A DNA stretch of 29,282 bases from a virus. The position numbers and the translations under genes were made by a program. The number at the start of each line of letters is the position of its first letter. Within the stretch, counting starts at the first letter, position 1. The stretch spans positions 1 to 29,282 of IMG/VR virus record IMGVR_UViG_3300005939_000030. One strand, written 5' to 3'. The notes under the pieces were generated by a model. That model was not told where the DNA came from. It saw nothing but the letters and a program-made list of their open reading frames with translations, and made no database searches. Below are positions 7,965 through 28,687 of the stretch, piece by piece.

Positions 7965-7965
7965 T

Positions 7966-9234: not shown

Positions 9235-9249
9235 AGAGAGGTATAAAAT

Positions 9250-9791: not shown

Positions 9792-9815
9792 TTCTTTGAA
9801 AGGAGAAATAGAGTT

Positions 9816-10799
9816 ATGGGAGCAGGAAATACAAACGTAAAATCAAAATGGATTGACGGCAATCTTTGGTTTAAAGACAAATCAGGGAATACATTAATGT
9901 ATCTTGATGGAGCAAACGGATTGATAGGGTCAGTAGGAATCAACACACCGGGCAAAGTATATTATGTTGAAGCAAATGCAGGAGATGACGACAATGACGG
10001 CTTAACCTGGAACACAGCATATAAAACTTTAGTAGTTGCTATGGCAGCAAGTCACGCAAATATTGCAGCAAGTTCAAGTGGGTGGGCCGCAAGAAATAGG
10101 ATTTACTACAAAGGCGACCCAACAGCCACAGCAGATGCAGAACACTTAACTAAACTTGCACAGAAAACTGACATAATTGGAGTAGGCTCTACCGATTGGA
10201 AAGCTAAATCACAACTAATAGGAAATCACGTTATTCCGACAACCAACAGTTACCCAGGGTGCAGATTTATCAATATGATGTTCAAGGGAACAATCGCATC
10301 AGGTGGTGACATATTCACAATAACAGACCAACATGGAGTTGAATTTATAGATTGTGAATTTATGGGAGATTCTACCATCGCAGCAACAGCGGCCGTAATA
10401 GCAACTGCATGTGTTAGTCTTAAATTCAAAAACTGTGTAACAAAAGGAGCTTATTCTGATGCCGTTATTGAAATTGGAGCAGGACAGGCAGATGATTTTG
10501 AAGTTGTTGATTGTTTAATTCAAGGAGCTAACATGGGAATTGACATCAGCGCCTCAGCTACTTTTGTGGCTGGTAAATATGGACTGATTAAAGACAATGT
10601 GTTTAGAACAACTTTGGCTTGTATCAATGATGGAGAATCAAAATGCTATGTTGTTGGTAACAGAGGTTCAACAGCAGCAGCATCAGGTGTAGCACTTGCA
10701 GGAGCAGTTGTGTGTAATATCGCACTTGCACAAGATAACCGTTTTACCACAAGCAGCGATAACAACATTGAGTACCCAGCTTTGGGTTCAATCACTTAA
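9816..10799 (+). CDS. Right-handed beta-helix protein, possible head fibre or spike
   Basis: 327 residues. After a short N-terminal section (1-45) comes YYVEANAGDDDNDGLTWNTAYKTL, the standard opening of NosD/pectate-lyase-like beta-helix proteins. Repeated coil-like strands follow (FINMMFKG, VEFIDCEFMG, LKFKNCVTKG, FEVVDCLIQG, GLIKDNVFRT). AAAGGAG at 9799-9805 is the ribosome site. Such proteins bind or cleave polysaccharide in tailspikes; no catalytic set can be assigned here. Its location between capsid/decoration and the connector genes argues for attachment to the head or neck, though it may simply be a displaced tail component. Confidence 0.72.
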   Translation: MGAGNTNVKSKWIDGNLWFKDKSGNTLMYLDGANGLIGSVGINTPGKVYYVEANAGDDDNDGLTWNTAYKTLVVAMAASHANIAASSSGWAARNRIYYKGDPTATADAEHLTKLAQKTDIIGVGSTDWKAKSQLIGNHVIPTTNSYPGCRFINMMFKGTIASGGDIFTITDQHGVEFIDCEFMGDSTIAATAAVIATACVSLKFKNCVTKGAYSDAVIEIGAGQADDFEVVDCLIQGANMGIDISASATFVAGKYGLIKDNVFRTTLACINDGESKCYVVGNRGSTAAASGVALAGAVVCNIALAQDNRFTTSSDNNIEYPALGSIT

Positions 10800-10810
10800 A
10801 GGAGTAAAAT

Positions 10811-11728
10811 ATGTTGACCAAACTAATCACAGCAGTAACCACAGAACCGATAACTGTATCTGATGTACTTGCTCAAGTCAGACACAATACTTATGACCTT
10901 GCAGATAGTGTTACATTAGTACAGAGCATAGCTCCAGGCGCACATGATGTTGGTTCTGAAACAGGAACTTCCGCTGACTTGCTTGGATATAAATCACTTG
11001 TGCTTTTAGAAGCTGGTGATTGTACAAGCGGAACTGTTGATGTTGTGGTACAGGATTCAGATGATGATACCACATACACAACTTGGTCAACATTTACTCA
11101 GGTTGATGTTGATAATGACAACACTACTTATGAAAAAGAATACACAGGAAACAAAAGATACGTTAAAGGTGTAGCAACTATTGGAACGGCAAGCTGTGAA
11201 TTTGCAGTAAGCGTTATGAAGTATGCTATAACCTCAAGCGAAAGCGCATTGATTACTGCGAAGATTCAAGCAGCAAGAGAGTATGGCGAGGACTATGCAA
11301 AGCAGGCACTAGCACCTCAGACATGGGAAGTCTATTATGATGATTTCCCAAGTTGCGATTTAATAGAGTGGCCTTATGGTCCGATGACCTCATGCACATC
11401 TCTTATATATATTGATTCTGATGGAACGGAAACAACGATGGTAGCCGATACAGATTACATTGTCGACACAGACACATACCCAGGTAGAGTATACCTGCCG
11501 TATGCCACACACTGGCCATCATTCACACCCCAACCATATAACGCAGTAATACTAAAAGGAGTTTGCGGATACACAGGAGCAGCACCGTATATCTTACCTC
11601 ACAACTTCAAGGAAGCCTTATTGGTACACGTTGGGTTAATGTTCCGATATAGGGATGAAGAAATCCCCGAAGGAGCTTTGAACACCGTACACAGGCTTTA
11701 CAAACTAAGGAGTTACAGATGGCTATAA
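10811..11728 (+). CDS. Head-tail connector (gp6-like) with inserted beta domain
   Basis: 305 residues against roughly 190 for ordinary gp6/phiE125 gp8-type connectors. Residues 1-30 (LITAVTTEPITVSDVLAQVR) match the family N-terminus. The family resumes at about 141 (SSESALITAKIQAAREYGED, then LAPQTWEVYYDDFP, the proline-rich middle, and the FKEALLVHVGLMFRYRDE helix). Between them, residues 31-140 form an all-beta block with the LLGYKSLVLLEAG... YTGNKRYVKG pattern seen in stand-alone small phage head proteins. The connector ring docks beneath portal; the inserted domain would project from it. The ribosome site is AAAGGAG. The stop overlaps the next gene. Confidence 0.85.
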   Translation: MLTKLITAVTTEPITVSDVLAQVRHNTYDLADSVTLVQSIAPGAHDVGSETGTSADLLGYKSLVLLEAGDCTSGTVDVVVQDSDDDTTYTTWSTFTQVDVDNDNTTYEKEYTGNKRYVKGVATIGTASCEFAVSVMKYAITSSESALITAKIQAAREYGEDYAKQALAPQTWEVYYDDFPSCDLIEWPYGPMTSCTSLIYIDSDGTETTMVADTDYIVDTDTYPGRVYLPYATHWPSFTPQPYNAVILKGVCGYTGAAPYILPHNFKEALLVHVGLMFRYRDEEIPEGALNTVHRLYKLRSYRWL

Positions 11729-12042
11729 ACGCAGGTAAAATGAACATATCAATTACCTTGCAGTCATCTAGTGGTGGTGTAGATACTTATGGTCAGCCAA
11801 ACAGAACATGGAACGATGTAGTGACTGTATGGGCTGAAAAGAATAACAGAGGCAGCCGTAAATTCTACCAAGCACAAAAGTTATATGCAGAAACAACTGA
11901 TGTGTTTACAACTTGGTACACTGCAAAAATAGACACATTGAACCGCATTAAGTTTGGGAATCGTTATTATAACATCTTAGGATATGACAACACAGACGAA
12001 CGAAACCTTGAACTGGTGCTGATAGCGAAGGAGGAAGTATAA
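11719..12042 (+). CDS. Head-tail adaptor (SPP1 gp16 / Phage_H_T_join-like)
   Basis: 107 residues, normal length. Family pattern: basic beta start (KMNISITLQSSS), DTYGQPNRTWNDVVTVWAE, a central FYQAQKLYAETTDVFTTWY segment, and the C-terminal IKFGNRYYNILGYDN...LELVLIAKE. It forms the stopper or adaptor ring that keeps DNA in the head and receives the tail. AAGGAG at 11707-11712 is its ribosome site. It overlaps the connector gene by ten bases and abuts the next gene without a gap. Confidence 0.9.
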   Translation: MAINAGKMNISITLQSSSGGVDTYGQPNRTWNDVVTVWAEKNNRGSRKFYQAQKLYAETTDVFTTWYTAKIDTLNRIKFGNRYYNILGYDNTDERNLELVLIAKEEV

Positions 12043-12465
12043 ATGGAAATAGAACAAGCATTAATGACTTACCTACTTACGGTGTCAGGTTTAACCACAT
12101 TGGTCAGTAACAGAATATACGCAGAAGAGATGGATGTAAAAATCAACAATAAAATATCAGACATCTTCCCTGCGGTTATATACTCAAAGATAAGTGATGT
12201 GAAAAGCGCAACACTTACAGCACAAATGAAACTTGAGCGACCTTCTTTCCAGTTCTCATCAATAGCACTGAGGAAGTCAGTTGCTCGAGCAATATCAAAC
12301 CAGATAAGAAATGCACTGGTCGACTATCAGGGAACACTGAGCGGTCTTGTGATCCAAAAGATTGAATTGCAAAACGAAGATTCGCTTAAAGAACAATCAA
12401 CTGATGGAACTGTGCAAGTTTACACAGAAACTTTAGAGTTTCAAATCAACTTTGAAAGGAGTTAA
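12043..12465 (+). CDS. Tail terminator/completion protein (DUF3168-like)
   Basis: 140 residues. It starts MEIEQALMTYLLTVSGLTTLV and has the family's N(R)IYAEE... FPAVIYSKISD segment, then ARAISNQIRNALVDYQG and a C-terminal TLEFQINFER strand. In HK97/lambda-type phages this family caps the finished tail tube and joins it to the head. AAGGAGG at 12028-12034 precedes the ATG. It normally follows an HK97 gp10-like gene; here gp10 is missing from that position and lies further downstream (13839-14294). Confidence 0.82.
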   Translation: MEIEQALMTYLLTVSGLTTLVSNRIYAEEMDVKINNKISDIFPAVIYSKISDVKSATLTAQMKLERPSFQFSSIALRKSVARAISNQIRNALVDYQGTLSGLVIQKIELQNEDSLKEQSTDGTVQVYTETLEFQINFERS

Positions 12466-12467
12466 TT

Positions 12468-13184
12468 ATGTCAAACGCTAAACACGCTTTCGGTACTACC
12501 TTTTCATGGAATAGCGAGGATGTAGCCGAACTGACTGCCATTAACGGCATTGAATTGTCAGTTGATTCTGTTGAGGTCACAAGCCATGATTCCGCTGATT
12601 ATTACAAGGAATTTATACCAGGACTTATAGATGCAGGAGATGTTGTTCTCGAAGGAAACTTTGATTACACCGACACAGCCGCACAACATGCCATGATAAC
12701 CGATGCAAATAGTAGAACATCAAGGACGGGAGTTATTACATTCCCATCCGCCACAGGCTCTACATGGACATTTACAGGATTTGTCACAAGCGTCAAAATA
12801 GGGGATGCACCCGTTGACAATGTTGTACCGTTTACGGCAACAGTTAAAGTCACAGGCAAACCTACATTTGCAGTTGCAACATCAGCAGGACTTACTACAC
12901 CATTCTTCTCAATGAGCGAGAGTGCTGTAATTTCACCTGACCCAGCAGCAGCCGTATATTCCTATGTAGCAACCGTATTGACAGCAGTTACATCTGTAAC
13001 ACTCACACCAACAGCAGCAGCAGGAGTAATTACAGTTGCAGGAAATACCGTAGCCACAGGAGTTGCATCAAGTTCAATAACACTTGGAGCAGCAAACACG
13101 AACACCGAAGTACTCGTTGTTATAACAGAAACTAGCAAAGCACCAATTACATATACTGTGCTTGTAGCAAGAGCAGCGACTTAA
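12468..13184 (+). CDS. Major tail protein with C-terminal Ig/cadherin-like domain
   Basis: 238 residues. Residues 1-135 resemble the tail-tube fold: HAFGTTFSW start, VEVTSHDS, DVVLEGNFDYTD and a final VPFTATVKVTGKP strand. Residues 145-238 form a separate Ser/Thr/Ala/Val-rich beta-sandwich ending in ITYTVLVARA, the pattern of cadherin-like/Ig-like add-on domains. Such domains project from the tube surface and are thought to help weak contact with cell-surface sugars. Tube protein is made in many copies, so the tail would be studded with them. The ribosome site is AAAGGAG, two bases before the gene end-start junction. A terminator follows immediately. Confidence 0.88.
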   Translation: MSNAKHAFGTTFSWNSEDVAELTAINGIELSVDSVEVTSHDSADYYKEFIPGLIDAGDVVLEGNFDYTDTAAQHAMITDANSRTSRTGVITFPSATGSTWTFTGFVTSVKIGDAPVDNVVPFTATVKVTGKPTFAVATSAGLTTPFFSMSESAVISPDPAAAVYSYVATVLTAVTSVTLTPTAAAGVITVAGNTVATGVASSSITLGAANTNTEVLVVITETSKAPITYTVLVARAAT

Positions 13185-13185
13185 G

Positions 13186-13217
13186 ATTGACTGGGGTGGG
13201 GCGACCCACCCCTTTTT
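13186..13217 (+). terminator. Strong intrinsic terminator after major tail protein
   Basis: GGGGTGGG (13193-13200) pairs perfectly with CCCACCCC (13205-13212) around a GCGA loop of the GNRA type, followed by five T's (13213-13217). It starts two bases after the major tail protein stop. The first 15 bases are the same as in the element after the capsid/decoration genes. The next gene's ribosome site follows directly, so read-through must feed the downstream tail genes. Confidence 0.88.
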
Positions 13218-13231
13218 AAAAGGAGGTAAAA

Positions 13232-13540
13232 ATGATACCATTTGTAATTTTACAATTAGACAAGGCTTATAATTTACGGTTTGGAATGAGAACAATGCTT
13301 GAACTTAAAAAAGAAGGATTGGACGTTTCAAAGAAATTCGACCCATCAATCGACAATATGCTAAAGGTTTTATGGGTCATGTTAAGAAGAGAAAACTCAG
13401 CACTCACTATAGAAATGGTTGCTGATTTAGTTGATGATAATGCGAACAACCTTGAAGAAGTGTTTGCTAAAGTAGCAGAAGCTATGGAGGTGGCACAAGA
13501 TACGGGGGAGTTAAAAAAGGGGAGAAACAAAAAGAACTAA
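13232..13540 (+). CDS. Tail assembly chaperone, short form (gpG-like)
   Basis: 102 residues, small helical protein between the major tail protein and the tape measure, the standard place for the lambda gpG counterpart. It is thought to coat the tape measure during tail assembly. AAAAGGAGG at 13217-13225 is a strong ribosome site. The C-terminus is basic (KKGRNKKN). The slippery heptamer lies seven codons before the stop, so most ribosomes would make this form and a minority would continue in the -1 frame. Confidence 0.85.
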   Translation: MIPFVILQLDKAYNLRFGMRTMLELKKEGLDVSKKFDPSIDNMLKVLWVMLRRENSALTIEMVADLVDDNANNLEEVFAKVAEAMEVAQDTGELKKGRNKKN

Positions 13541-13842
13541 ACTTTGACAGCGAATATAAGTATGCTTTAAAAATGGGAATGAAACCATTGGATTTTTGGG
13601 AATTAACATATGCTGAATTTTACCACATGATGAAAGCACACCACGAAAATCTCAAAGAAGAGTTCAAAGATACATTAAGATTGGCATGGTATACAGCGGC
13701 ATTTACAAGAGCAAAGGACTTACCAAAACTTGAAACTGTATTGGCAGATGTATCAGACAAGAAAAAGCAAACCTCAGAAGAGATGATGGCAATGGCAAAA
13801 ATGTTAAACGCAACACATGGAGGCATAGAGGTTAAGACATGA
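13232..13842 (+). CDS. Tail assembly chaperone, -1 frameshift fusion (gpGT-like)
   Basis: Frameshifted product of about 203 residues: 96 from the short-form frame up to the AAG codon at 13517-13519, then 107 in the -1 frame ending at 13842. The -1 frame is open across the junction (GEKQKELNFDSEYKYALK leads into the MGMKPLDFWELTYAEF segment at 13573). That downstream part has the Trp/Phe-rich WELTYAEFYHMMKAH motif typical of the second half of Bacillota chaperone pairs. An ATG at 13573 exists but has no convincing Shine-Dalgarno site, supporting expression as the fusion. The T part recruits tail tube subunits to the tape measure in lambda. Confidence 0.85.
13513..13519 (+). promoter_or_regulatory. 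-1 ribosomal frameshift site A AAA AAG
   Basis: In the zero frame the codons are TTA AAA AAG GGG, so A AAA AAG is correctly phased for a tandem -1 slip, the same heptamer as Escherichia coli dnaX. A purine-rich GGGGGAG lies three bases upstream and GGAGG at 13486-13490. No strong 3' hairpin was obvious to me. Confidence 0.85.
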
Positions 13843-14294
13843 TAAAGATTGATATTATAGGCGAAAAAGAACTAAAAGCGGCAGTACAAAGACTACCGCT
13901 TGAAATGCTTGGAGATATAAAAGACGGGTCTGACTATGTGGCTGAGGCTGTTGTGTTGCCTAATATTAGAAAGCATCTTAGAAAATATCACAAGTATTCG
14001 CAGACAGGTGAACTAAGCAGAAGCCTATATATTAAAAAAAGAAAAATAAACACATATAAGTCAAACTTAGGGAAAGCTACTAAGTACAATGCGATAGTTG
14101 CATTTAAAAGAGATGGAGCTTCTATTGTTCCACTTGAATTAGGGCATAAACTTGTAATAAAGGGTAAAACTGTAAAGATGATAAAAGAACATCCATTCAT
14201 GCGACCAGGAGCAGATGATAGCCAAGCCACAGTAAACAGGGTAATAATCGGAGCGATACAGAAAACAATAGCAAGAATGGGAGGTCTTAAATGA
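13839..14294 (+). CDS. HK97 gp10-like neck/tail-completion protein
   Basis: 151 residues. It shows the gp10-like pattern: amphipathic start IIGEKELKAAVQRLP, QTGELSRSLYIKK (the TG.L..S element), VPLELGHKL and the KEHPFMRPGAD motif, then a C-terminal helix. In relatives this protein acts at the head-tail joint and its gene lies between the adaptor and the DUF3168-type gene. Here it sits after the chaperone pair and just before the tape measure, overlapping each neighbour by four bases. Because it overlaps the chaperone T frame, its translation is coupled to the frameshifted product or to weak initiation. The placement is unusual. Confidence 0.83.
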   Translation: MIKIDIIGEKELKAAVQRLPLEMLGDIKDGSDYVAEAVVLPNIRKHLRKYHKYSQTGELSRSLYIKKRKINTYKSNLGKATKYNAIVAFKRDGASIVPLELGHKLVIKGKTVKMIKEHPFMRPGADDSQATVNRVIIGAIQKTIARMGGLK

Positions 14295-17086
14295 GTAGTA
14301 CAATTAGAAGCCTCGTAGTAAGAGTTGGGGCTGACCTTTCTAGATTTAACAAGTCAATGAATAAGATGTACAGAACCATGAGCAAGGCAGGGCGAAAGTT
14401 CACAGCCGTTGGTAGTACATTAACTAGGGGATTGACATTACCATTATTAGCAGTCGGAGCAGCCGCATTTAAAATGGGTAAAGACTTTGAAGCCGCCACA
14501 GCAAAGATTGTAGGCTTGGTTGGTGTTGCTCGTGAACAGGTTAACGCCTGGTCAAAAGATATGCTTGAGATGGCACCAGACCTTGCGACTGCACCAAACG
14601 AACTTGCAGAAGGTTTATTCTTTGTAACTTCCGCAGGTCAACGTGGAGCTGAGGCAATGATGACACTTGAACTTTCAGCTAAAGCCGCTGCTGCTGGACT
14701 TGGAAGCGTTAAAACTGTAGCTGATGTTGTAACCTCGGCGATGAACGCATATGCCGATTCTGAACTAGACGCAGCCACAGCCACAGACATTCTAACCGCA
14801 GGCGTTAGAGAAGGTAAACTTGAAGCTGAAAGCCTTGCTCCTGTTATTGGTAATTTACTTCCAGTAGCATCTGCAATGGGAATAGAATTTGACCAAGTTG
14901 TCGGAACTCTAGCAGCCATGTCAAGGACTGGTTCTGAGGCAGCATCTTCGGCAACTTCATTACAACAGATAATGATGACACTATTGAAACCAACAAACGA
15001 AGCATCAAATAAACTCAAAGAAGCTGGGCTGTCAATGTCAATGCTAAGAGATATGGCGGCAGGTCCAAACGGCTTACTTGATGTTATGAGATTGCTCGAC
15101 AAAACATTTGCAGATGATGAAGAAGCACTCGGTGAAATCATACCAAACGTAAGAGCTTTCAGAGGTGCTATGAATTTACTAGCACAGGATTCTGCAACCG
15201 TTGATTCCATAATGAATAATGTTACAAACTCAGCAGGTATTCTAAGTAAAGCTTTTTTGGAAACAACAGAAACAACAGGTTTCAAATTTGACCAAGCTAT
15301 TGTAGCCGCAAAAGTTTCATTGGATACATTATGGGGAACAATCAAAGATGATATCATCCCGATCATAGATAAAGCCGCTGAATGGTTTGGCAAAATAACC
15401 GACAAACTAAACGCTATGACAGATGCACAAAAAGATAGTATGTTAAAGTGGGCTAAGTTTGCATTAATTATTGGTCCTGTGCTTTTATTATTCGGCAAAC
15501 TATTGACAATAATACCTATGTTAGGCACAGCCTTTGCGGCACTAATGGGTCCAGTAGGATTGGTTGCACTAGCTTTTGCTGGTATAGCCATTGGTGTTAT
15601 AGCATGGCAGAAGAAATATAATGATGCCGTTGCTGATATAGAAGCGAACGCTAAGAAATCTATCGCATTAGTTGAAGAAGAACGTGATGCTCGAATCATA
15701 GCATATAGAGAAGCACTAGATGAAAAACGTGCAGCACTTGATGAAGAATCACGCCTAGTCGAAGAGAACTATGATGAGGCAATTAGTGAACTTGAAGATT
15801 ATCAAAGACAATCATTGTCTACTGAGAGAACAAGACTTCAAGCATTAATATCAGCTAACGATAGAGCCTATGACAATATTATCCAAAACATCAGAGAAGA
15901 GTATGGTGTGTTTGAAAGTTCCACAAAATCAAAAATGGACATTGCCGATACTTATTATGATGATTTAGTTGACAAGGCTGGAACTTCTTATCAGACTATT
16001 CGAGATGAAATTAATAAAACACTCAAGGCAGATATTGCAACGGTCGATGCTGAAACACAAACAGAAGTTGATAAGGTTCAGACAAAGATTGATTTATTAA
16101 ATACTGAAACCGAAGAAGAAAAGAAAGCCGCAAAGGAAACAGCAAACGCAACACGAATTTCAGAACTTGAAAAGGAATCTGCTTTTGGTAGGTCACATCA
16201 AATAAGGAAAAACGCAGCCGCAGAACTCGTAAGTTTCTTAGAAGCTATTGAACAAGAGAAAAATGAAACGATTAGGAATGACCAGATAGCCGCATACGAA
16301 CAAGAGATAACCGACCTTAAAGATGCAGGCGTTACAAAGGCAGAAGAACTAACGGCTCAAGCTGCAACAGATAAAGAAACAGCCGGAACAAACCTAGCCA
16401 CAAAAATAGTTAACATTAATAAAGAAAAAGATGCAGCCATACAAGCTATTGATGACGAGCGCAAAGAACTTGAAAAGGCAGAACTATTAAAGCACGGATC
16501 AAGAAAAAAATTCCACTTGAAGAATTTATGGTTGTTGGATAATGGCTTTAGTGAATTTGTTGGCAATCTTGAAACTGAACTAACTGAACTTAAAAGAATT
16601 GAAGAAGAAAAGTACAACACAAGAAAAGAATGGCTTGATAAATCTGAGGTAGCTCTTACAACTTACGAAGAAGTACAAGCTGGAATAAATGAAGAAAACC
16701 GCAGAGATGCTGAACAGGCTATTTTGGAAATCCAACAGCAAGCCGTAGTTGAAAAAGAAGCAATCGACATTCCGACACCTGGCGTAAAAGGTGCTGTTAT
16801 AGATTTTGCCAATGATGAAATTAACTCAATAGATTGGTTTAAGCCTTTTAGGGAACTGGGTGAAATACTTGGTTTTGAAAAAGGTGGAACTGTTCCAGGT
16901 GCAATCGGAGAACCAATGCTTGCCGTTGTTCATGGTGGTGAAGAAATCACACCTGCTGGCGGTAATGGTGGAGCAATAGAAATCAATGCAACTTATTATG
17001 TAGCAGACAAAGCAACTGCTGAATATGCAAATAATGACCTTGTAAGAAGATTTCAACAGAGGGGAATAGGGGGAAGTTTCCTATGA
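14291..17086 (+). CDS. Tape measure protein (TP901-1 type)
   Basis: 931 residues, the longest gene. It sets tail length and enters the host envelope during DNA ejection. Residues 60-330 form the TP901-type core (FEAATAKIVGL, LAEGLFFVTSAGQRG, TAGVREGKLEAESLAP, LAAMSRTGSEAASS). About 389-440 is a hydrophobic double-membrane segment. From 441 to about 790 is a long charged coiled coil rich in Glu, Lys and Ala, and the end has the Gly-rich EKGGTVPGAIGEPMLAVVHGGEE typical of these proteins. No peptidase or lysozyme domain is visible. At roughly 0.15 nm per residue it implies a tail near 140 nm. It overlaps both neighbours by four bases. Confidence 0.93.
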   Translation: MSSTIRSLVVRVGADLSRFNKSMNKMYRTMSKAGRKFTAVGSTLTRGLTLPLLAVGAAAFKMGKDFEAATAKIVGLVGVAREQVNAWSKDMLEMAPDLATAPNELAEGLFFVTSAGQRGAEAMMTLELSAKAAAAGLGSVKTVADVVTSAMNAYADSELDAATATDILTAGVREGKLEAESLAPVIGNLLPVASAMGIEFDQVVGTLAAMSRTGSEAASSATSLQQIMMTLLKPTNEASNKLKEAGLSMSMLRDMAAGPNGLLDVMRLLDKTFADDEEALGEIIPNVRAFRGAMNLLAQDSATVDSIMNNVTNSAGILSKAFLETTETTGFKFDQAIVAAKVSLDTLWGTIKDDIIPIIDKAAEWFGKITDKLNAMTDAQKDSMLKWAKFALIIGPVLLLFGKLLTIIPMLGTAFAALMGPVGLVALAFAGIAIGVIAWQKKYNDAVADIEANAKKSIALVEEERDARIIAYREALDEKRAALDEESRLVEENYDEAISELEDYQRQSLSTERTRLQALISANDRAYDNIIQNIREEYGVFESSTKSKMDIADTYYDDLVDKAGTSYQTIRDEINKTLKADIATVDAETQTEVDKVQTKIDLLNTETEEEKKAAKETANATRISELEKESAFGRSHQIRKNAAAELVSFLEAIEQEKNETIRNDQIAAYEQEITDLKDAGVTKAEELTAQAATDKETAGTNLATKIVNINKEKDAAIQAIDDERKELEKAELLKHGSRKKFHLKNLWLLDNGFSEFVGNLETELTELKRIEEEKYNTRKEWLDKSEVALTTYEEVQAGINEENRRDAEQAILEIQQQAVVEKEAIDIPTPGVKGAVIDFANDEINSIDWFKPFRELGEILGFEKGGTVPGAIGEPMLAVVHGGEEITPAGGNGGAIEINATYYVADKATAEYANNDLVRRFQQRGIGGSFL

Positions 17087-17457
17087 TATATGGCACAACA
17101 ACATTGAATGTTTTAGCAGGATCACTAGCAACCACCAAGACTGTTAAAAAAGTAATCAGAAGTTATATAAATAGTGATAGCGCAGATGAGGAATATTTAG
17201 GGCGAGAACCTACAAAGTTCACTTGCACATTAATAGCTGAGTCGGATTCTGCAAGGGTACTCATTGAATCACTCTTGCAAAGCAATACTAATCTAACACT
17301 TTATTTTGATAACCATTATTATAAAAATGTAGTTGGTGGAGCAAGTACAACTTTGAAACCGGCAACAGGTGATGAAACAAATTGGTTTATTGCCGCTGAA
17401 TTTACAGCACTTGACCCTGTACCTTATGATAGCACAACAGATGAAAGGCTTTATTAA
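17083..17457 (+). CDS. Small minor tail protein, possible distal tail component
   Basis: 124 residues, beta-rich. It lies between tape measure and hub, the position of the distal tail (Dit) protein, but is much shorter than usual Dit proteins (over 200 residues). The segment YLGREPTKFTCTLIAESDSARVLIESLL and the closing FTALDPVPYD recall tail-tip ring proteins, though not strongly enough to name a family. ATG overlaps the tape measure stop (ATGA) and its own stop shares one base with the next start. Most likely part of the ring joining tube to hub; this is inferred from position. Confidence 0.68.
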   Translation: MIYGTTTLNVLAGSLATTKTVKKVIRSYINSDSADEEYLGREPTKFTCTLIAESDSARVLIESLLQSNTNLTLYFDNHYYKNVVGGASTTLKPATGDETNWFIAAEFTALDPVPYDSTTDERLY

Positions 17458-19721
17458 TGGCTGACATTTATCGTTATGGGAAATATTCCATAGCCGTTGA
17501 GAATACAAACTTTAGAAATGCTGACCCATCATTTTCAGTAGTTGCTACTGGCTACCCCGGATTCATTACAGGATACGCAGGATACGCTTTTAATTCGACT
17601 GCCGGGTTCTATGGTACAGGTTCATGGGAAGGTAAACCCACCCCATTTGTCGGTGTTGAAATAAGATTTAGAATAGAAGATAATGGTGGAAGAGTTAAGG
17701 CTTATTATAACTATACCACCAACACTTATGATACTTATAAAAAAGAATGTGATTACGACACAGCTAATGTTAAAGGAACATTTGACGAATATGTATATGC
17801 CATTGACGGAGCTTATCCCGATGATGGCGAGAGTGGTTCATATTGGTATGTAAAAGGTGCTGTGTGGATTACAGACCCAACAGGCACGACAACCTCACCT
17901 GCCGAAGACATTGCACATAGTTCGGCCACATTAAAGGGTGCTGTTACAGATGCAGGTACAACTGATTCAGATTTCTACCCAACTGTATATTTTGAGTATG
18001 GCGAAACCGTCACAGATAATGAGGTTGAAGTTTCAACTGGTGGTGTAGATGATTATGAGAAAGCCATAACAGGACTTACACCCAACACCGCTTATGACTT
18101 TAGAATTAAGATAGTTAATGATGCAGCAACGGCTTATGGTGCAACCGAAAGTTTCAGTACAACAGAGCAACCATTAGCAATGCCTACCGTTACATCACCT
18201 ACAAGCGGAACTAACACAACAGACACTACCCCGACATTTGATTTCACATTAACAGATACCCCTTTAAATACTGCCGTAAAATATGAAGCAAGAGTTAGAA
18301 TTTCTACCTTAGTTGGAATGGCAAGTATTGTATATACATATGAAAGTAAAGAGGCTTCGGGAACTTGGGAATATTTAGTCGGTGCGGTATGGACTGCGTG
18401 GCCTGCCGGTGGTGTTGACCCCGACACAAGAGTTCGAGTAACAATAGCAGACACATTAGAATACAGACAACAGTATTATTGGGATTGTACTTCATACGAC
18501 CAAAGCGATTATGGATTTGATTTGTCACCAGCTTACCCACTTCAAGTAATTATAAACATTGATGGGTTATTTGGTTTAACTATTGGCGGAAATTCATATG
18601 ATGTATTTGATTTAATTGTAACCGAAACTTCAAATGGCGAAATAGGAACTATTAACTTCTCGATGAATAACTTGGGCGGTATTAATTATTCAGCCATTGA
18701 TTATGGTGATACTGTTATACTTGGCATAAATGATTCAGCAGGAAACACAGAAGAGTTTGAGGGGCGGATTAAATCGAAAGTTCCTAGCGGTGGAATAATG
18801 AGCATGGAAGCAACATTGGGAGATGGTGTTCTCGGTGAAAGACTTGTAAAAGAAGATTACGATATAGCAGATATAACTCATATGTGGTCAACGAGTGCAA
18901 AGAATGTAACGACCATTTCATTAGCGGGTTCTGGTGTAGTTGAGAATGACATTGTTGTGGTTTGTGGTTCGGGCGATAATGTAACACCTTCAACGCCTAC
19001 GGGATATACTATAATAGCAAGCGGAGTTTCTGGTGTTGGTGGAGTCTACTATAACATATCATACAAAAGAATGGGTTCAACACCCGATAGTTCAGTTGAT
19101 GGATTAGAAGCTGCTGATAACCGACCATATACTGTATCAGCATTTAAAGGTGTCGATATTGCAACGGCTCTTGATGTTACCGTAACAACAGATTCAGATT
19201 CAAGTGGTATGCCGAACTGTCCATCAATCACCCCTACCAGCATAAGCTGTATGATTTTAGCGGCTGGATTTCTTGATGATGATGAAGTGGCTGCCACCGT
19301 AACAGCTCCCGCAAATTTCACTTTATCACAGGCATATGATGGAACTGCAACAACTGTAATGATAGCTTATTATTTGAATGATGGAGTTGCAACCGCTGTT
19401 GATCCTGCCGTCTTTGGTGGCGGTGGCGATGATGTGTGGGTTGGTGTAACTGTAGCTCTAAGACCATACAAATATGATGTCGGAATAATCCTTGATGATG
19501 TTGTCGACACCTACTGTTCGCCATTAACATCAACTGGAGTAGATACAGCCACAGGATTTAGTGCTGATATAATTTCAGACAACTCAACACCGTTAAGTGT
19601 GTTTGAAGAACTTAGAAGAAGATATGGATTTTACTACTTTGTAGATTCTGACTGGGATGTGCAAGTATACAAGAGTGACGTAATAGACGTTGCTGATACC
19701 AAAATAACATATGGAGGGTAA
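17457..19721 (+). CDS. Tail hub/tip protein, N-terminal and central part, with added domains
   Basis: 754 residues. In order: unknown N-terminal region (1-145); fibronectin-III-like domain (about 150-236, SSATLKGAV to LTPNTAYDFRIKIVNDA); Ig-like region (240-366); start of a hub (gp27/XkdQ-like) fold (about 370-472, FDLIVTETSNGEIGTINFSMNN then FEGRIKSKVP and LGERLVKEDYD); an inserted beta domain (about 473-670, TTISLAGSGVVENDIVVVCG to VWVGVTVALR); and hub sequence again (671-754, VGIILDDVVDTYCSPL, then FEELRRRYGFYYFVDSDWDVQVYKS). It stops at ITYGG, where hub proteins normally continue. The missing C-terminal domain resembles the product of 21102-21587. It would form the tail tip that contacts the cell. 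No Shine-Dalgarno site; translation is coupled to the upstream gene. Confidence 0.78.
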   Translation: MADIYRYGKYSIAVENTNFRNADPSFSVVATGYPGFITGYAGYAFNSTAGFYGTGSWEGKPTPFVGVEIRFRIEDNGGRVKAYYNYTTNTYDTYKKECDYDTANVKGTFDEYVYAIDGAYPDDGESGSYWYVKGAVWITDPTGTTTSPAEDIAHSSATLKGAVTDAGTTDSDFYPTVYFEYGETVTDNEVEVSTGGVDDYEKAITGLTPNTAYDFRIKIVNDAATAYGATESFSTTEQPLAMPTVTSPTSGTNTTDTTPTFDFTLTDTPLNTAVKYEARVRISTLVGMASIVYTYESKEASGTWEYLVGAVWTAWPAGGVDPDTRVRVTIADTLEYRQQYYWDCTSYDQSDYGFDLSPAYPLQVIINIDGLFGLTIGGNSYDVFDLIVTETSNGEIGTINFSMNNLGGINYSAIDYGDTVILGINDSAGNTEEFEGRIKSKVPSGGIMSMEATLGDGVLGERLVKEDYDIADITHMWSTSAKNVTTISLAGSGVVENDIVVVCGSGDNVTPSTPTGYTIIASGVSGVGGVYYNISYKRMGSTPDSSVDGLEAADNRPYTVSAFKGVDIATALDVTVTTDSDSSGMPNCPSITPTSISCMILAAGFLDDDEVAATVTAPANFTLSQAYDGTATTVMIAYYLNDGVATAVDPAVFGGGGDDVWVGVTVALRPYKYDVGIILDDVVDTYCSPLTSTGVDTATGFSADIISDNSTPLSVFEELRRRYGFYYFVDSDWDVQVYKSDVIDVADTKITYGG

Positions 19722-19724
19722 ATT

Positions 19725-21092
19725 ATGTTAAATGCAGCCAACAATGCCGAAACAACTTTAGCGGCAACAATCACAGCAATAGCCACAGAATTAACAGTTA
19801 CAAGTGCAAGTGGGTTTCCAAGTGCGCCATTTCTAATCTCGATTGATAATGAAATATTAAAGGTAACTGTTGTGGCAACCAACACTTTCACCGTTACAAG
19901 AGAACAGGAAAGCACAACAGGTGCAATCCACACAATAGGGGTTGCGGTTGAGAACAGATTTACAGCAGGAATGTATAATGATGTAGCCATATCAGCAAAG
20001 GTTTCTGTTTCCGCTGATGGGAGCGGTGAATACTCAACAATACAAGCAGCACTCACAGACAATGTAACCGTTGGTTTATTGGTGTTAGTTTATCCCGGCA
20101 CTTATACAGATGATACAATAACCTTTACGGCTAACAGTCAAGAAGTTAGGGGCATGGGTATTAGTCCATCGGGTGTTAATGTAACCACAGCCAGTTCTAA
20201 TATTGTTAATTACGCAGCTTTTACAGGGTGTCGAATCAACAGAATAAAAATGCAAGTAACAGCAGGCACAACATTAGTACACACCGTTACAGGTTCAACG
20301 GGCAGTTGTAACCTAGTTAAGTGTCATACAAAAATGGTAACAACTTATGCAACGGCAGGTACACAACCAGCTTGTTTAAATTCAAGTGGAACTGGAACAA
20401 TAAAGGTTGTAGAAGGAACGGTAGAATATGAACACAGTGGCAGTAATGCCGCAGTAGCAAAAGCATTATTAAATTGTGAAGCGAATAATTGTACTGCTAT
20501 ATTTGACCAAGTTAATATTGATATTAATTGTTCAAACGACTCTCTTGTAAGTGGTATATCTTTTGGAACTGGTGCAACTACGGTATCAGTAAACAGGTGT
20601 GAAATTGATATTGAAGATGACGGCACAGCGATTGTTGTTGGACTTTATGTAGCCGGTGCTGTTGCTGGAGAGTTTTTATATAATACAGTTCACGTTACAG
20701 GCACAGGTGTTTTAGCTGCTGGTATGTATATCAACGCAGCCGGGGCAGCAATCAGAAGTATGTATAATCATGTTCATGTGTCGGGTGCTACGACTAACAA
20801 CTCTTTCTTCCTTAACGATTATGCCTCGACATTAACATCTCAGTTTGATGACCTTATAGCAGTTGATGGAATAAACAATCTTGGTCTTGCAACAAGGGTT
20901 GTACAGGTAAATTCTGAAGCTGATGGTGCTATTTCAGTCAGTGGAGATTTAGTATTAAAGACAACACAGACACCCGCAACGGCAGGAGCAACAGGAACAA
21001 AAGGAACAATAGCTTGGGATGCAGACTATATGTATGTATGTATTGCCACAGACACATGGGAGCGAGTAGCCATAGCAACCTGGGCGACATAA
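19725..21092 (+). CDS. Beta-helix fibre/spike protein inserted between hub parts
   Basis: 455 residues. Residues 1-85 contain a small phage beta domain (ETTLAATITAIATELTVTSA ... LISIDNEILKVTVV ... FTVTREQESTTGA). From about 92, VSADGSGEYSTIQAALTD and VLVYPGTYTDDTITF open a pectinesterase/pectate-lyase-like right-handed beta-helix with coil repeats to about 395. The end (GTKGTIAWDADYMYVCIATDTWERVAIATW) is a common C-terminal cap of phage fibres. Probably binds or cuts surface polysaccharide; catalytic residues cannot be assigned. AGGAGGGTAA precedes the ATG. It starts three bases after the upstream hub part stops. Confidence 0.8.
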   Translation: MLNAANNAETTLAATITAIATELTVTSASGFPSAPFLISIDNEILKVTVVATNTFTVTREQESTTGAIHTIGVAVENRFTAGMYNDVAISAKVSVSADGSGEYSTIQAALTDNVTVGLLVLVYPGTYTDDTITFTANSQEVRGMGISPSGVNVTTASSNIVNYAAFTGCRINRIKMQVTAGTTLVHTVTGSTGSCNLVKCHTKMVTTYATAGTQPACLNSSGTGTIKVVEGTVEYEHSGSNAAVAKALLNCEANNCTAIFDQVNIDINCSNDSLVSGISFGTGATTVSVNRCEIDIEDDGTAIVVGLYVAGAVAGEFLYNTVHVTGTGVLAAGMYINAAGAAIRSMYNHVHVSGATTNNSFFLNDYASTLTSQFDDLIAVDGINNLGLATRVVQVNSEADGAISVSGDLVLKTTQTPATAGATGTKGTIAWDADYMYVCIATDTWERVAIATWAT

Positions 21093-21101
21093 GGGGCTTA
21101 T

Positions 21102-21587
21102 ATGTTATTTAATACCAGACAATTTAATGAAGGAACATTTAACTCGTTTGATTACACTGAATTAATGTGGGTTGATAAACCTATTGTAAAAACACAAGGG
21201 CCTTTGGCAACGCACGTTACTGTCAAAAGTGACACAGATGAGTACACCGCCAACAACACACCCGAACCTGCCGTTGGTATACGCATTGAAAGAATCGTTG
21301 AGATTGACACAGGCGATGTTGCGGTTTGCCAGACAGTAGCCGAACAGTTACTTGCAAGATGGTCGGTTAATCAGGTGTCAGTAACGGGAATAATAGCTTT
21401 AAACGTTACCCTTGATTTTAAAAAGAAACTAAGAATTGTATTGGCGTGGGCGGGCATTGATGAAGATATGATACTACTAAAGAAAGTTCACTATATCCAA
21501 AAAAATCAGGTAGTAACCGAGATTACTTGTGGAGATTTTATCTTGGGCGAAGATGAACTTTTAACTAGGATATTGGCAACGTTGTAA
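21102..21587 (+). CDS. Detached hub C-terminal domain protein
   Basis: 161 residues. The first 20 (LFNTRQFNEGTFNS) look like a short tail-protein N-terminus. Residues 60-150 have the pattern of the last hub domain in gp27/XkdQ-like proteins: a helix with VAEQLLARWS, a strand region VSVTGIIALNVTLDFKKKLRIV, and LLKKVHYIQKNQVVTEITCGDF. The 754-residue gene lacks exactly this part. Best reading: one ancestral hub gene became two, with the beta-helix gene between. It could instead be a separate small tip protein that merely shares the fold. The ribosome site is weak (AAGGGG). Confidence 0.68.
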   Translation: MLFNTRQFNEGTFNSFDYTELMWVDKPIVKTQGPLATHVTVKSDTDEYTANNTPEPAVGIRIERIVEIDTGDVAVCQTVAEQLLARWSVNQVSVTGIIALNVTLDFKKKLRIVLAWAGIDEDMILLKKVHYIQKNQVVTEITCGDFILGEDELLTRILATL

Positions 21588-21638
21588 AAGGTTTGAAAAG
21601 TGATACTATTTAAGTAAATAACAGCAGGGAGAAGACAT

Positions 21639-21968
21639 ATGACGCAAGGGGAACAGTTAGCAATCTATGAAAAGATTGAAGAAGTAAAGGATAACCTAAG
21701 AGATAAAATTGATGAGAAGTTTGACGATGTGCGAGAAGATATATCAGAACTAAAAGAGTATGTACATAAAAATAACAACATCAAAAAACTTGTGGAAAAA
21801 CATGATGAGAGTATAGACAAATGTACCTCATTGCTCGAAGCTCATTTGGTTGTGTGTACTGTCAGGGCAGATGATAAGAAAGGGAGGTTTAGCAAACGAG
21901 CAACATCAATAGCGTTGTGTTTAACATTTATTGGTTTGGTTGTTTCGATTGCTATTAACGTATTTTGA
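21639..21968 (+). CDS. XhlA-like coiled-coil membrane protein (lysis module)
   Basis: 109 residues. Residues 1-65 are a charged coiled coil (KIEEVKDNLRDKIDEKFDDV); the C-terminus has one membrane helix, about 89-108 (SIALCLTFIGLVVSIAINVF), preceded by basic residues. This resembles XhlA-type lysis accessory proteins, which sit in the membrane and act with a holin. CAGGGAG at 21625-21631 is the ribosome site. First gene of the lysis block; the stop overlaps the next start. Confidence 0.75.
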   Translation: MTQGEQLAIYEKIEEVKDNLRDKIDEKFDDVREDISELKEYVHKNNNIKKLVEKHDESIDKCTSLLEAHLVVCTVRADDKKGRFSKRATSIALCLTFIGLVVSIAINVF

Positions 21969-22219
21969 AAAAGACAAAGGTCGTGGCGTTCTATGAAGTT
22001 ACTTTTACTAAGGTTATAATGATGATTGTTACAATCGTGTTTATGGCTTTTTGTGGTAAGCAGTTTTTCTCTAACGAACTACTCCCAGAGTTTGAATCTT
22101 GGGTTAAAATCTTCCTAGGCTCATGGACTGTATATGGTGGCAAATCGGGTTATGAAAACTACCAAAGAAACAGAACATATAATTATGATAGCAATTATGG
22201 AAGCGGGTTGCCGTTATGA
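21965..22219 (+). CDS. Small membrane protein, holin-associated
   Basis: 84 residues if started at TTG 21965, which overlaps the preceding TGA as TTGA and has no Shine-Dalgarno site, so re-initiation would be needed. An alternative is ATG 22019 after AAGG, giving 66 residues. One clear membrane helix, about 16-34 (KVIMMIVTIVFMAFCG), then an aromatic-rich amphipathic segment (LLPEFESWVKIFLGSWTVYG) and a Tyr/Asn-rich polar tail. Its place between the XhlA-like protein and the amidase suggests a holin partner or second holin. The start remains uncertain. Confidence 0.7.
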   Translation: MKKTKVVAFYEVTFTKVIMMIVTIVFMAFCGKQFFSNELLPEFESWVKIFLGSWTVYGGKSGYENYQRNRTYNYDSNYGSGLPL

Positions 22220-22998
22220 GATTAGCAATCGATGCAGGTCACTCATGGATCACAGCAGGAAAAAGAACACCCAAGTTCTCAGATGGAACATTCATGCACG
22301 AGTTTGATTTCAATTCAGCCGTTGCTAATATGGTTGTGGAAAATCTAAAGCATTGTTGCGAGATAGTATTAACCTATGATGAGAGTGGTCAAACAGATTA
22401 CACATATTACAGCAGAGTGCAAAAAGCCAACACCGTTAAAGCAGATTTATTCGTATCAATTCACGCCAATGCAATCGGTGATGGTGTGAGTTTCAATTCT
22501 TCATATGGGATATTGTTTTTAGCAGACGAAAGAAGAACAGACCATGTGGACTTCGCTCGGACTATCATAGGGGAAATGGCGAAAGTATACCCAAGGAAAA
22601 GAGTATTAAATTGGATACCAGGAAGCACCGGTCAAAGCCTATGCAAATATTCTGATATGCCAACCGCAATAATTGAGTGTGGATTCATGACCAACCTGCA
22701 AGACGCTGAACTTTTACTCGATATAGATTACAGGAAGAATTGTGCCGATGCAATATCAAACGGCATTTTAATATATGCAAAACAAAAGGGGTTGATAAAA
22801 ATGGATGAAGGATTAATAAGACAAGCAGAGGAAGCTATTGAAATATTGGCATTGAGGGGATTTATTAAAGACCCGGAAGTGTGGAAGAACAGTGACCTAT
22901 CACAACCAATGCCAGTAGCACATACCATGATTATCTTGAGCAGAATAGTTCAGGATTATGGTGGCATGATTGATGATTTTGATAAGAGGAGGTATTAA
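22216..22998 (+). CDS. Endolysin, N-acetylmuramoyl-L-alanine amidase (Amidase_3)
   Basis: 260 residues. It cuts the bond between MurNAc and the peptide stem at lysis. Zinc ligands are in place: His9 in DAGH, Glu29 in MHEFDFN, His83 in SIHAN; catalytic Glu154 is in AIIECGFMTN. The catalytic domain is residues 1-190. Residues 197-250 form a helical C-terminal segment (LIRQAEEAIEILALRGFIKDP ... AHTMIILSRIV) found as an end domain in clostridial phage lysins, possibly wall-binding. No signal peptide, so export depends on holin. ATG overlaps the upstream stop as ATGA. Confidence 0.95.
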   Translation: MRLAIDAGHSWITAGKRTPKFSDGTFMHEFDFNSAVANMVVENLKHCCEIVLTYDESGQTDYTYYSRVQKANTVKADLFVSIHANAIGDGVSFNSSYGILFLADERRTDHVDFARTIIGEMAKVYPRKRVLNWIPGSTGQSLCKYSDMPTAIIECGFMTNLQDAELLLDIDYRKNCADAISNGILIYAKQKGLIKMDEGLIRQAEEAIEILALRGFIKDPEVWKNSDLSQPMPVAHTMIILSRIVQDYGGMIDDFDKRRY

Positions 22999-22999
22999 A

Positions 23000-23317
23000 A
23001 TGAATGGAATTATAATGTTACCAAACGAACTAGGAGCAGCGTTGCTTATACTGTTGGGGGCAATAGTCCTTGATGCAATATTCGCAATCCTGATTCACGT
23101 TAAACTTGGAGATTTTGAATGGAGGAAAACCACACAATTTTTGATTACTGGTGTCTTACCGTATGTCGGTGGGATTGGCGCACTTGCTGTATTGGCATGG
23201 CTCGTAGGTGCATTTTTCATCGAGGTATTCTTTGCACTCGGTGCGATTGTTGCCTTGAAATATAGTGCTGAAATCATCAGTAAAATTAAACAGTTGTTTG
23301 GCTTACTGAAAAAATGA
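23000..23317 (+). CDS. Holin-like membrane protein
   Basis: 105 residues from ATG 23000, chosen for GAGGAGG at 22986-22992; an in-frame ATG at 22970 is inside the amidase gene without such a site. Hydrophobic segments at about 8-31 (NELGAALLILLGAIVLDAIF), 45-68 and 70-87, then a basic end (SKIKQLFGLLKK): small, up to three membrane spans, charged C-terminus, which fits a class I/II holin. Directly after the endolysin, with its stop overlapping the next small gene by four bases. Confidence 0.82.
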   Translation: MNGIIMLPNELGAALLILLGAIVLDAIFAILIHVKLGDFEWRKTTQFLITGVLPYVGGIGALAVLAWLVGAFFIEVFFALGAIVALKYSAEIISKIKQLFGLLKK

Positions 23318-23487
23318 ACAAAATATATATAGTAAATGAAAAAGAATACTTGGTGTGGTTCGACTCAATAAGAGGTGTAATGTTTGCCACCCCGAAACAT
23401 GGTGATGCAGATATTAAAATCATACGCAAGTCAGATACCAAAGATACACGTTACGTTGAGAGAGCGATACGCAAGACCTATCTGTGA
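23314..23487 (+). CDS. Small hypothetical protein at end of late operon
   Basis: 57 residues (MNKIYIVNEKEYLVWFDSIR ... ERAIRKTYL). It starts at an ATGA overlap with the holin stop and is followed by the intergenic terminator region, so it is the last gene of the late operon. Basic, no membrane segment, no family recognised. The overlap and normal codon use make it likely real. Confidence 0.65.
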   Translation: MNKIYIVNEKEYLVWFDSIRGVMFATPKHGDADIKIIRKSDTKDTRYVERAIRKTYL

Positions 23488-23570
23488 GCCGTACAACCCC
23501 ATTTTGACGGCTTTATACTAAAAGCTAACCACCTATTCATTTTTACCCCTACCCGCCTCTAAGAGGCACT

Positions 23571-23599
23571 GGACAGGCTAACCACCTGTCCTTTCTTCT
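23571..23599 (+). terminator. Intrinsic terminator at end of late operon
   Basis: GGACAGG (23571-23577) pairs with CCTGTCC (23585-23591), loop CTAACCA, followed by a T-rich run (TTTCTTCT). An 11-base piece covering its loop (GCTAACCACCT, 23577-23587) is repeated exactly at 23524-23534. A small GCCTC/GAGGC hairpin (23555-23567) lies just upstream. The elements separate the late genes from the right-hand operon. Confidence 0.85.
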
Positions 23600-23634
23600 A
23601 TTCCATTAAATGACTATAAATATATATAAATCGC

Positions 23635-23663
23635 TTGACATAACTATTTAATAGGTATAGAAT
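23635..23663 (+). promoter_or_regulatory. Strong sigma-A/sigma-70-type promoter of the right-hand operon
   Basis: TTGACA at 23635-23640, spacer of exactly 17 bases, then TAGAAT at 23658-23663 (one change from TATAAT). An A+T-only or nearly so stretch upstream (about 23608-23630) could act as an UP element. Transcription would start near 23670, ahead of the AAGGAG ribosome site of the gene at 23694. Near-consensus promoters like this usually serve early transcription by host RNA polymerase. Confidence 0.88.
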
Positions 23664-23693
23664 GAGTTATAAGCAAATTAAAGGAGAAAGAAA

Positions 23694-23915
23694 ATGAAAA
23701 ACGCACCTTGTATGAATTGTCAAAAAAGGGTTTTAGGTTGTCAGGTTGTCGGTGATGACGGTTGCTTTGAATACACTGAATACCGCAAAGAAATTGATGC
23801 TATGAACAACAAGGTTAGAATGTCACATCTTTGCACCAATGCACAGAAATCAAAGTTGACTTCAAGACCGAAGAACAGAAGGGAGTATAGTTCATGTTTT
23901 GGGATTTGGGCGTAA
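23694..23915 (+). CDS. Cys-rich small protein, probable zinc-binding
   Basis: 73 residues, first gene behind the promoter. The N-terminus has CMNCQKRVLGCQ and a later GCFEY (Cys6, Cys9, Cys16, Cys24), resembling small C..C..R..GC..C proteins common in Bacillota phages, likely one zinc knuckle. The middle is helical (YTEYRKEIDAMNNKV), the end basic and Ser-rich. AAAGGAG at 23680-23686 is the ribosome site. Function unknown; its last codons overlap the next small gene. Confidence 0.75.
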   Translation: MKNAPCMNCQKRVLGCQVVGDDGCFEYTEYRKEIDAMNNKVRMSHLCTNAQKSKLTSRPKNRREYSSCFGIWA

Positions 23916-24019
23916 AAAAAATAGTAGGTTATGTGGTGGCTTGTTCGCTATTCCTATTGGGTGTGTGGACATATATGTATTTATTAGCCTTGTTATTAAA
24001 GGCATTGAAAGGAGGTTAA
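23894..24019 (+). CDS. 41-residue single-span membrane peptide
   Basis: MFWDLGVKKIVGYVVACSLF then LLGVWTYMYLLALLLKALKGG: one long hydrophobic helix (about 11-36) with Lys at both ends. GGGAG at 23881-23885 precedes the ATG with acceptable spacing. It overlaps the Cys-rich gene by 22 bases in another frame. Small membrane peptides of this kind are frequent in phage early regions and may affect the host membrane or exclude other phages; nothing here shows a specific role. Confidence 0.6.
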   Translation: MFWDLGVKKIVGYVVACSLFLLGVWTYMYLLALLLKALKGG

Positions 24020-27456: not shown

Positions 27457-27809
27457 AAATATTTTTAATATGTCCAGTAAGAAACGCAACAAAGGATCAG
27501 TTAAAATCCTTAGATGCTTATATATCTTTAATAGAAATGAGGGGAGATAAGATTTATTATCCCACCAGAGATAATATATTTGAAAAATCTGACACTATCG
27601 GATATGTCATTTGTGACACAAACAAAAAGGCAATGGCTGATGCTGACGTAGTGCATATTTTCTTTGATCCTAAAAGCAAGGGAAGTTTATTTGACTTAGG
27701 TATGGCATTTGCTTTAAACAAAAAGATATTTATAGCAAACATTGTTGAACTAACTGAACACAAATCATTTTCAAATATGGTTAGAGCATGGAGTTTAAAA
27801 TGCGAATAG
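27453..27809 (+). CDS. Nucleoside 2-deoxyribosyltransferase-like protein
   Basis: 118 residues. IFLICPVRNATKDQ at the start, HIFFDPKSKGSLFDLGMAFAL near 68-88, and the Rossmann-like KKIFIANI strand fit the NDT/DUF4406-like superfamily. NDT enzymes cleave N-glycosidic bonds through a catalytic Glu in the G.....E.G.A motif; here the aligned residue appears to be Asp81, so catalysis by the usual route is uncertain. It overlaps the radical SAM gene by ten bases, suggesting joint action on a nucleotide or nucleic acid; the substrate is not known. Confidence 0.75.
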   Translation: MKIFLICPVRNATKDQLKSLDAYISLIEMRGDKIYYPTRDNIFEKSDTIGYVICDTNKKAMADADVVHIFFDPKSKGSLFDLGMAFALNKKIFIANIVELTEHKSFSNMVRAWSLKCE

Positions 27810-28687
27810 GTTTAATAGATGTAGACGGTCACAACTTCCCAAACTTGCCACTGATGAAACTATCTGCATGGCATAAACAGAACGGCGATAATGTTGATTG
27901 GTGTGTGCCGTTATTGAAGTATGACAAAGTTTATGTTTCTAAAGTGTTTGACTTCACACCTGACTTTGACACAGCGGTCAACACAAAAGAACTGATCCGA
28001 GGTGGCACAGGTTATGACTTGAAGAATGTATTACCTGATGAAGTTGAAACAATGTTCCCTGACTACAACTTGTATCCGCAATATCAAGGTAAGGCATATG
28101 GATTTTTAACAAGAGGTTGTCCGAACAACTGTCCATTTTGTATTGTGACACCAAAGGAGGGTAGATTAGTTCATAAGGTTGCCGACATAACAGATTTTTG
28201 GAGTGGTCAAAAAGAAATTATATTACTTGATGCAAACATGACGGCATACAAAAACACACTTGAACTGTGTGATCAGTTGATAGAAACCAAAGCACTAATC
28301 ACATTCAGTCAGGGATTAGATATGCGATTTATGACAGAAGATTTCGCACACAAGATACAACAAATGAAAATTAAAATGTTGCACTTCGCATGGGATTTGC
28401 CAAAGTTTGAAAAGATTATTGTTGAAAACTTACAAACGTTTCGCAAATATTGGGATCTCAACGAAAGAAACCTAAGGGTTTATGTCCTAACAAACTACAA
28501 CACCGACCTCAAGTATGACTTGTATAGGATATATAAACTCAAAGAACTTGGCTATGACCCATATGTAATGATATTCAATAAGCAAACAGCACCAAGGATT
28601 ACAAGGAAGTTACAGCGTTGGGTTAATAACAAATTCATATTCAGAACTTGTGATAAATTTGAAGATTACAGAGGAGGTAAAAAATGA
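27800..28687 (+). CDS. Phage radical SAM protein
   Basis: 295 residues from ATG 27800. That start is chosen because GGAG (27790-27793) sits six bases before it and the protein then opens MRIGLIDVDGHNFPN. Cys107, Cys111 and Cys114 in TRGCPNNCPFC form the CxxxCxxC site for the 4Fe-4S cluster that cleaves S-adenosylmethionine. The N-terminal 95 residues recall the B12-binding-like or leader domain of MiaB/B12-type radical SAM enzymes, including YDKVYVSKVFDFTPDF. The barrel continues with IILLDANMT and FSQGLDMRFM. Substrate unknown; possibly base or RNA modification, given the NDT-like partner. SAM-dependence fits an anaerobic host. Confidence 0.88.
   Translation: MRIGLIDVDGHNFPNLPLMKLSAWHKQNGDNVDWCVPLLKYDKVYVSKVFDFTPDFDTAVNTKELIRGGTGYDLKNVLPDEVETMFPDYNLYPQYQGKAYGFLTRGCPNNCPFCIVTPKEGRLVHKVADITDFWSGQKEIILLDANMTAYKNTLELCDQLIETKALITFSQGLDMRFMTEDFAHKIQQMKIKMLHFAWDLPKFEKIIVENLQTFRKYWDLNERNLRVYVLTNYNTDLKYDLYRIYKLKELGYDPYVMIFNKQTAPRITRKLQRWVNNKFIFRTCDKFEDYRGGKK

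Follow-up and report, generated by a model that had tools for sequence, protein, structure and literature searches.

A siphovirus tail hub probably built from two chains, with a tail-fibre gene lodged between their genes

Phage tail hubs are usually regarded as single essential chains that can hardly be changed. A siphovirus contig of 29,282 nucleotides (IMG/VR record IMGVR_UViG_3300005939_000030, positions 1 to 29,282; hereafter the window) raises the question of whether such a hub can be divided between two polypeptides. A preliminary description had noticed that a 754-residue tail protein with hub-like sequence is followed by a gene for a beta-helix fibre and then by one for a 161-residue protein, and had proposed that the first and the last of these proteins make up one hub.

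The window carries, in order, genes for terminase, portal, a ClpP-like protease, capsid, tail and lysis, the roles of the head genes being assigned from reading of the sequence. The frame at 14291-17086 encodes the tape measure protein, as indicated by matches to tape-measure families of PHROG and Pfam; lysis genes lie 3' of the tail genes, with an amidase at 22216, and four proteins, of 124, 754, 455 and 161 residues, are encoded between tape measure and lysis genes. The three open reading frames underlying the proposal were all recovered (17457-19721, 754 aa; 19725-21092, 455 aa; 21102-21587, 161 aa) and, like their parts and the 124-residue gene described below, lie on the + strand. Packing is tight, the 124- and 754-residue genes overlapping by 1 nt and the following genes being separated by gaps of 3 and 9 nt. 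A Shine-Dalgarno-like stretch was found at each of the three frames, GGAGGG and AAGGGG among them; GGAGGG lies within the last codons of the 754-residue chain, ahead of the stop TAA and 3-nt spacer at 19719..19724. All three share one reading frame (a chance of 1 in 9). Window positions 6571-23954 are also spanned by another contig, IMGVR_UViG_3300031227_000731 (L003; related loci are given L numbers throughout), which has 1 mismatch to the window in the 17571-18570 block and 0 in 18571-22570; this near-identity across the tail frames rules out a frameshift artefact. The 124-residue protein (17083..17457) sits between tape measure and hub, where L126, L140 and L142 have proteins of 112-116 residues, and is probably a short distal-tail (Dit) protein; family searches with it gave no match.

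Three further proteins of the window were recorded in passing. An 894-residue probable structural protein lies between terminase and portal (2419-5103) and has domains in common with the insert of the 1637-residue hub of L098 (E 4e-31). A second beta-helix-like protein, of 327 residues, is encoded directly after the capsid genes (9816-10799) and is perhaps a head decoration. Finally, the 299-residue protein at 27788-28687 has a CPNNCPFC motif and resembles a radical SAM enzyme.

According to work on T5, duplication and fusion gave rise to the hub, whose last ring consists of tube domains I and IV, domains II and III being elaborations (PMC10038345). No protein of the window had a hub match in Pfam, PHROG or PDB sequence searches, and single-sequence scans of viral contigs and tblastn against cultured phages, run with the 754- and 161-residue chains, retrieved the same virus only. 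Relatives were gathered from viral contigs and genomes via their capsid and major tail proteins, their hubs were identified, and 24 of these were aligned into a profile. Against this profile, residues 671-754 of the long chain (19467..19718) scored 17.4 bits, against a maximum of 7.4 among 900 shuffles, which bears out their description as hub-like; they show the helix and hairpins of hub domain II. The chain ends directly after this domain, with ...KITYGG, at the point where in every complete relative the second tube domain comes next, so that the early stop noticed in the preliminary description was also confirmed. For residues 370-472, described earlier as hub-type, the case is weak: a putative domain I, the first tube domain, can be placed at residues 364-472 (18546..18872) by eye and by positional alignment with domain 1 of relatives, and its score against the 24-hub profile was not significant. 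Upstream, residues 1-363 (17457..18545) appear from weak matches to comprise a beta domain and FN3-like domains, the FN3-type matches falling at about residues 180-236; a search of genomes within the class to which the Caloramator genome belongs gave one match in this FN3 region.

Between domains I and II lies the foreign domain described at about residues 473-670 (18873..19466), which has no counterpart in the aligned relatives, where the helical part comes next after domain 1, and is best regarded as an inserted decoration domain. It resembles decoration domains at the start of the second hub chain of L310 (Smith-Waterman Z 6.1) and in the first hub chain of L099 (Z 4.0). In-frame insertions near the domain I/II boundary or in other loops were also found in L239, L307, L310, L159 and L241/L242; thus, the inserted domain in the window represents an ordinary habit of such hubs.

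The gene that follows encodes a tail fibre with an N-terminal anchor domain (residues 1-91; 19725..19997), identified by PHROG tail-fibre matches and by a match to a profile of the fibres of L136, L123, L314 and L095 from which the window was left out (E 7.7e-17). A putative beta-helix body, delimited by its pattern by eye at about residues 92-398 (19998..20918), has a pectate-lyase-like start, YSTIQAAL...VYPGTYTD, and the last 55 residues resemble the ends of tail proteins in PHROG, defining a C-terminal tip domain (residues 399-453; 20919..21083; phrog_17312, E 1.5e-8; phrog_21017, E 2.9e-7). Anchor-type fibre genes occupy different places in relatives: after the hub in L136 and L095, by Dit ahead of any hub in L123 (directly 3' of Dit, L123:13637-15243), and between hub parts in L314. 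At L137:14815-19956, Dit is separated from a complete hub by other fibre genes.

Division of a hub by a fibre gene was found in several relatives. In L185, a 135-residue hub chain is followed by a 189-residue fibre-like gene, a 162-residue gene and a 366-residue hub chain. The two chains align with opposite ends of PF05954 (positions 28-101 and 224-304 of 305; E 3.9e-4 and 9.3e-4, both below the cut-off of Pfam itself), and an unsplit homologue is known: in the 611-residue hub of vir515, a virus of Methanosarcinales, the N half is matched by residues 54-173 and the C half by residues 168-510. L222, from a different metagenome, has its hub split in the same manner (135 + 366 residues), so in both loci the two ends of the hub family lie on two chains, while nearly all of the 80 loci of the L185-type family have an unsplit hub. 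The order in L314 is domain 1, domain 1', a 216-residue fibre of the window's anchor family (E 2.7e-45) and the remaining hub part (PF06605, E 1.9e-21); in L317 it is domain 1, domain 1', a 175-residue fibre-like protein and the rest of the hub. More generally, hubs split after domain 1 were found in L099, L100, L122, L301-L306, L308, L310-L315 and L317-L319, mostly through a 1-nt ATGA overlap of two genes. The location of the two tube domains on two chains is clear in L122, L314 and L185, and divergent phages share split hubs at about 70% identity. PF18994 and PF06605 both match one unsplit chain in L198. In the collections searched, no relative with the break point of the window was found. 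Two further candidates, L279 (5490-7287) and L296 (1713-3540), were set aside as small frameshifts, their close relatives being intact.

Tandem, differing domain-1 chains preceding a single second chain were observed at L314:4697-5343, L317:103-1700 and L319:1160-5386, those of L319 both being about 700 residues long with long repeats. They are possibly mixed or alternative tip chains.

The preliminary description had placed the missing last hub domain at residues 60-150 of the 161-residue protein, and here confirmation by sequence or fold was not obtained, leaving a C-terminal match found after the fact. The protein scored a non-significant 2.7 bits against the 24-hub profile, whole-domain PSSM tests against hubs gave Z values of 0.2 and 0.85, and its score with a whole-domain hub profile was equalled by 343 of 1000 shuffles. 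It had no match in genomes of the Caloramator genome's class, and a match to phrog_37928 (E 0.049) was taken as chance. Its last 50 residues, a stretch picked post hoc after inspection, matched the C-termini of hubs end to end (Z 3.6 against a hub C-terminal profile; 4 of 1000 shuffles; rank 4 of 1460 open reading frames), at a score such as some true families obtained when they were omitted one at a time; this positive result was not reproduced with a larger C-terminal hub profile built later. By eye, the strands and helix of the protein agree with those of the second tube domain, and its end, TEITCGD...ELLTRIL followed by the stop, resembles that of L049, TKIELGDPLNTIIEKL, or of L095, MEITLGSKPDRLDKYI. 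AlphaFold models had a pLDDT of 42.6 with 17 hub sequences and of 36.3 with the protein alone, both too poor for use, and Foldseek searches with them returned nothing meaningful. In both low-pLDDT models, the last 100 residues run strand, helix, four strands, helix, and this predicted order, obtained with and without homologues, fits that of the second tube domain.

An FN-rich leader, MLFNTRQFNEGTFNSFD, opens the protein (21102..21152), and the domain-1 chains of L136 (MFNESLYNEALFNQ, L136:12181) and L314 (MFNTAPLNTFAFNTRG, L314:4954) open with similar ones. The pattern FN...FN...FN is seen at the starts of separate hub chains in the window, L136 and L314. The remainder of the protein (21153..21584) is the putative second tube domain (domains III-IV) on a chain of its own, as suggested by its position, by elimination, by its secondary-structure order and by the C-terminal match. 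It is the only other protein without an assigned role between the fibre and lysis genes, and we infer, because of its place and by elimination, with mild support from the remaining comparisons, that it is the missing second tube domain of the hub. The proposal of one hub in two chains with a fibre gene between them is borne out in relatives (L185/L222, L314 and L317), and in the window, where the identity of the second chain is deduced, it is probably correct.

On an alternative reading, the 161-residue protein belongs to the tail tip or the fibre independently of the hub, whose second tube domain has been lost or replaced; this appears unlikely. Such a reading would account for the lack of significant whole-length similarity to hub C-terminal domains and for a leader that is foreign to hub domains. 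However, the C-terminal domain is present in the hubs of all complete relatives, where a fibre interrupts the hub gene of a relative, the remaining hub part follows the fibre directly, and both the secondary-structure order and the C-terminal 50 residues of the protein fit a hub. It is more doubtful still that the 754-residue protein is itself a fibre or decoration protein whose hub resemblance at residues 671-754 arose by chance: decoration domains do make up most of this chain, and Pfam and PHROG gave no hub match for it, but the 17.4-bit score exceeds that of all shuffles, the gene occupies the place of the hub, between the Dit-like gene and the fibre, and the window has no other hub candidate.

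Gene decay, in which a recent insertion broke the hub of a phage or provirus that is now defective, is very improbable. A broken essential gene could give such an appearance, and no computed result spoke in its favour; against it, both parts are intact reading frames with their own ribosome sites, the second with its own leader, two assemblies agree, the adjoining genes are intact, and divergent phages conserve the split hub at the identity given above. Least credible of all is a single final chain, produced by stop-codon readthrough of the three frames or by removal of the fibre as an intron or intein, since the shared frame of the three is set against a start and ribosome site for each, the absence of any Rfam match in the window to a group I/II intron core or other RNA family, fibre gene borders with short chance-like direct repeats only and no clear ones, and hub parts that lie in different frames in relatives (the ATGA overlaps and L185).

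Two-chain hubs have precedents. In RcGTA, two proteins make up the hub; in the known structure, a threefold complex, their domains can be superposed on T4 gp27 (PMC7296036). In roseophage R4C, the hub gene is followed by that of a peptidase and then by that of the megatron, hub and megatron being present in three copies each (PMC10276861). Both the RcGTA baseplate (g13 hub, g14 peptidase, g15 megatron) and R4C (genes 014, 015, 016) have a gp27-type hub in two chains, and they would resemble the window in this architecture and in the unrelated gene lying between the two hub-chain genes, with three copies of each chain in RcGTA and R4C. They differ from it in that the gene between encodes a cell-wall peptidase, whereas that of the window encodes a fibre and not a peptidase, in that the megatron carries other domains, and in the position of the break. 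Single-chain hubs (PF06605, Prophage_tail; PF05954, Phage_GPD; T5 pb3) have the same domain order, I, II, III, IV, but both tube domains lie on one chain, in contrast with the relatives and, probably, with the window. L099, L100, L122 and L301-L306 have a two-chain hub like that proposed for the window, with the domain-1 chain often loaded with decoration repeats; unlike the window, they show an ATGA overlap with no gene between, and an earlier break. L185/L222, L314 and L317 share with the arrangement proposed for the window one or more fibre genes between hub parts, the fibre of L314 also having the window's anchor domain, whereas their break points differ and the similarity of their hub parts to those of the window is limited to the general hub profile. 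No split hub with a fibre between its parts was found in the literature, searched largely in freely accessible journals. Thus, two-chain hubs with a gene between are already known from RcGTA and R4C, and what appears to be new is an exchangeable fibre gene at the break.

Exchange at such a break was observed between L185 and L222. Their DNA is 89.5% identical in the 5' flank, up to the first 147 bases of the fibre, and 94.7% identical in the 3' flank, which starts 28 bases ahead of the second hub chain, with no alignment across about 1.0 kb between these flanks (L185 13452-14486 vs L222 5098-5972). The first 45 or so residues of the fibre are kept and the remainder is different, and the other genes between the hub halves also differ, whereas the hub halves themselves are 96% and 91% identical as proteins. 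Only the insert between the hub halves has been replaced, which is a natural fibre swap. The earlier suggestion of a joint exchange of spike and tip does not agree with this sole observable swap, in which the genes between are changed and both hub halves stay. A second fibre cassette downstream is the same in both loci.

On this basis, the hub of the window would be assembled from two polypeptides. The 754-residue chain would contribute tube domain I and helical domain II, together with the inserted decoration domain and further domains of decoration and FN3-like type, and would terminate in an exposed loop; the second tube domain would come from the 161-residue chain. In one ring below the distal-tail protein, three copies of the long chain may alternate with three of the short one and close the tube, as do the RcGTA hub and megatron. 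The beta-helix fibre, encoded in the break, would be translated in the same run as the hub chains and would join the tip via its N-terminal anchor domain, and the break could serve as a site at which fibre genes are exchanged with the hub coding sequence untouched. For this phage, we infer the three-plus-three assembly, the docking of the fibre at the break and its exchange. It is possible, if somewhat doubtful, that the breaks in these siphovirus hub genes evolved as a site for docking and exchange, where, with the tube domains on two chains, fibre genes enter, leave and are replaced while a short anchor that binds there is kept, so that host range shifts with the hub unaltered, the presence of several domain-1 chains per second chain representing the extreme.

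In annotation, a short orphan protein encoded 3' of a fibre gene may represent a missing hub domain. The splits also suggest that the ancient duplication and fusion of the two tube domains has been undone repeatedly. If hubs are commonly cut with a fibre gene in the cut, there would be a simple link between host-range evolution and tail assembly: fibre swaps would spare the hub, and the order of translation may couple the amounts of fibre and hub.
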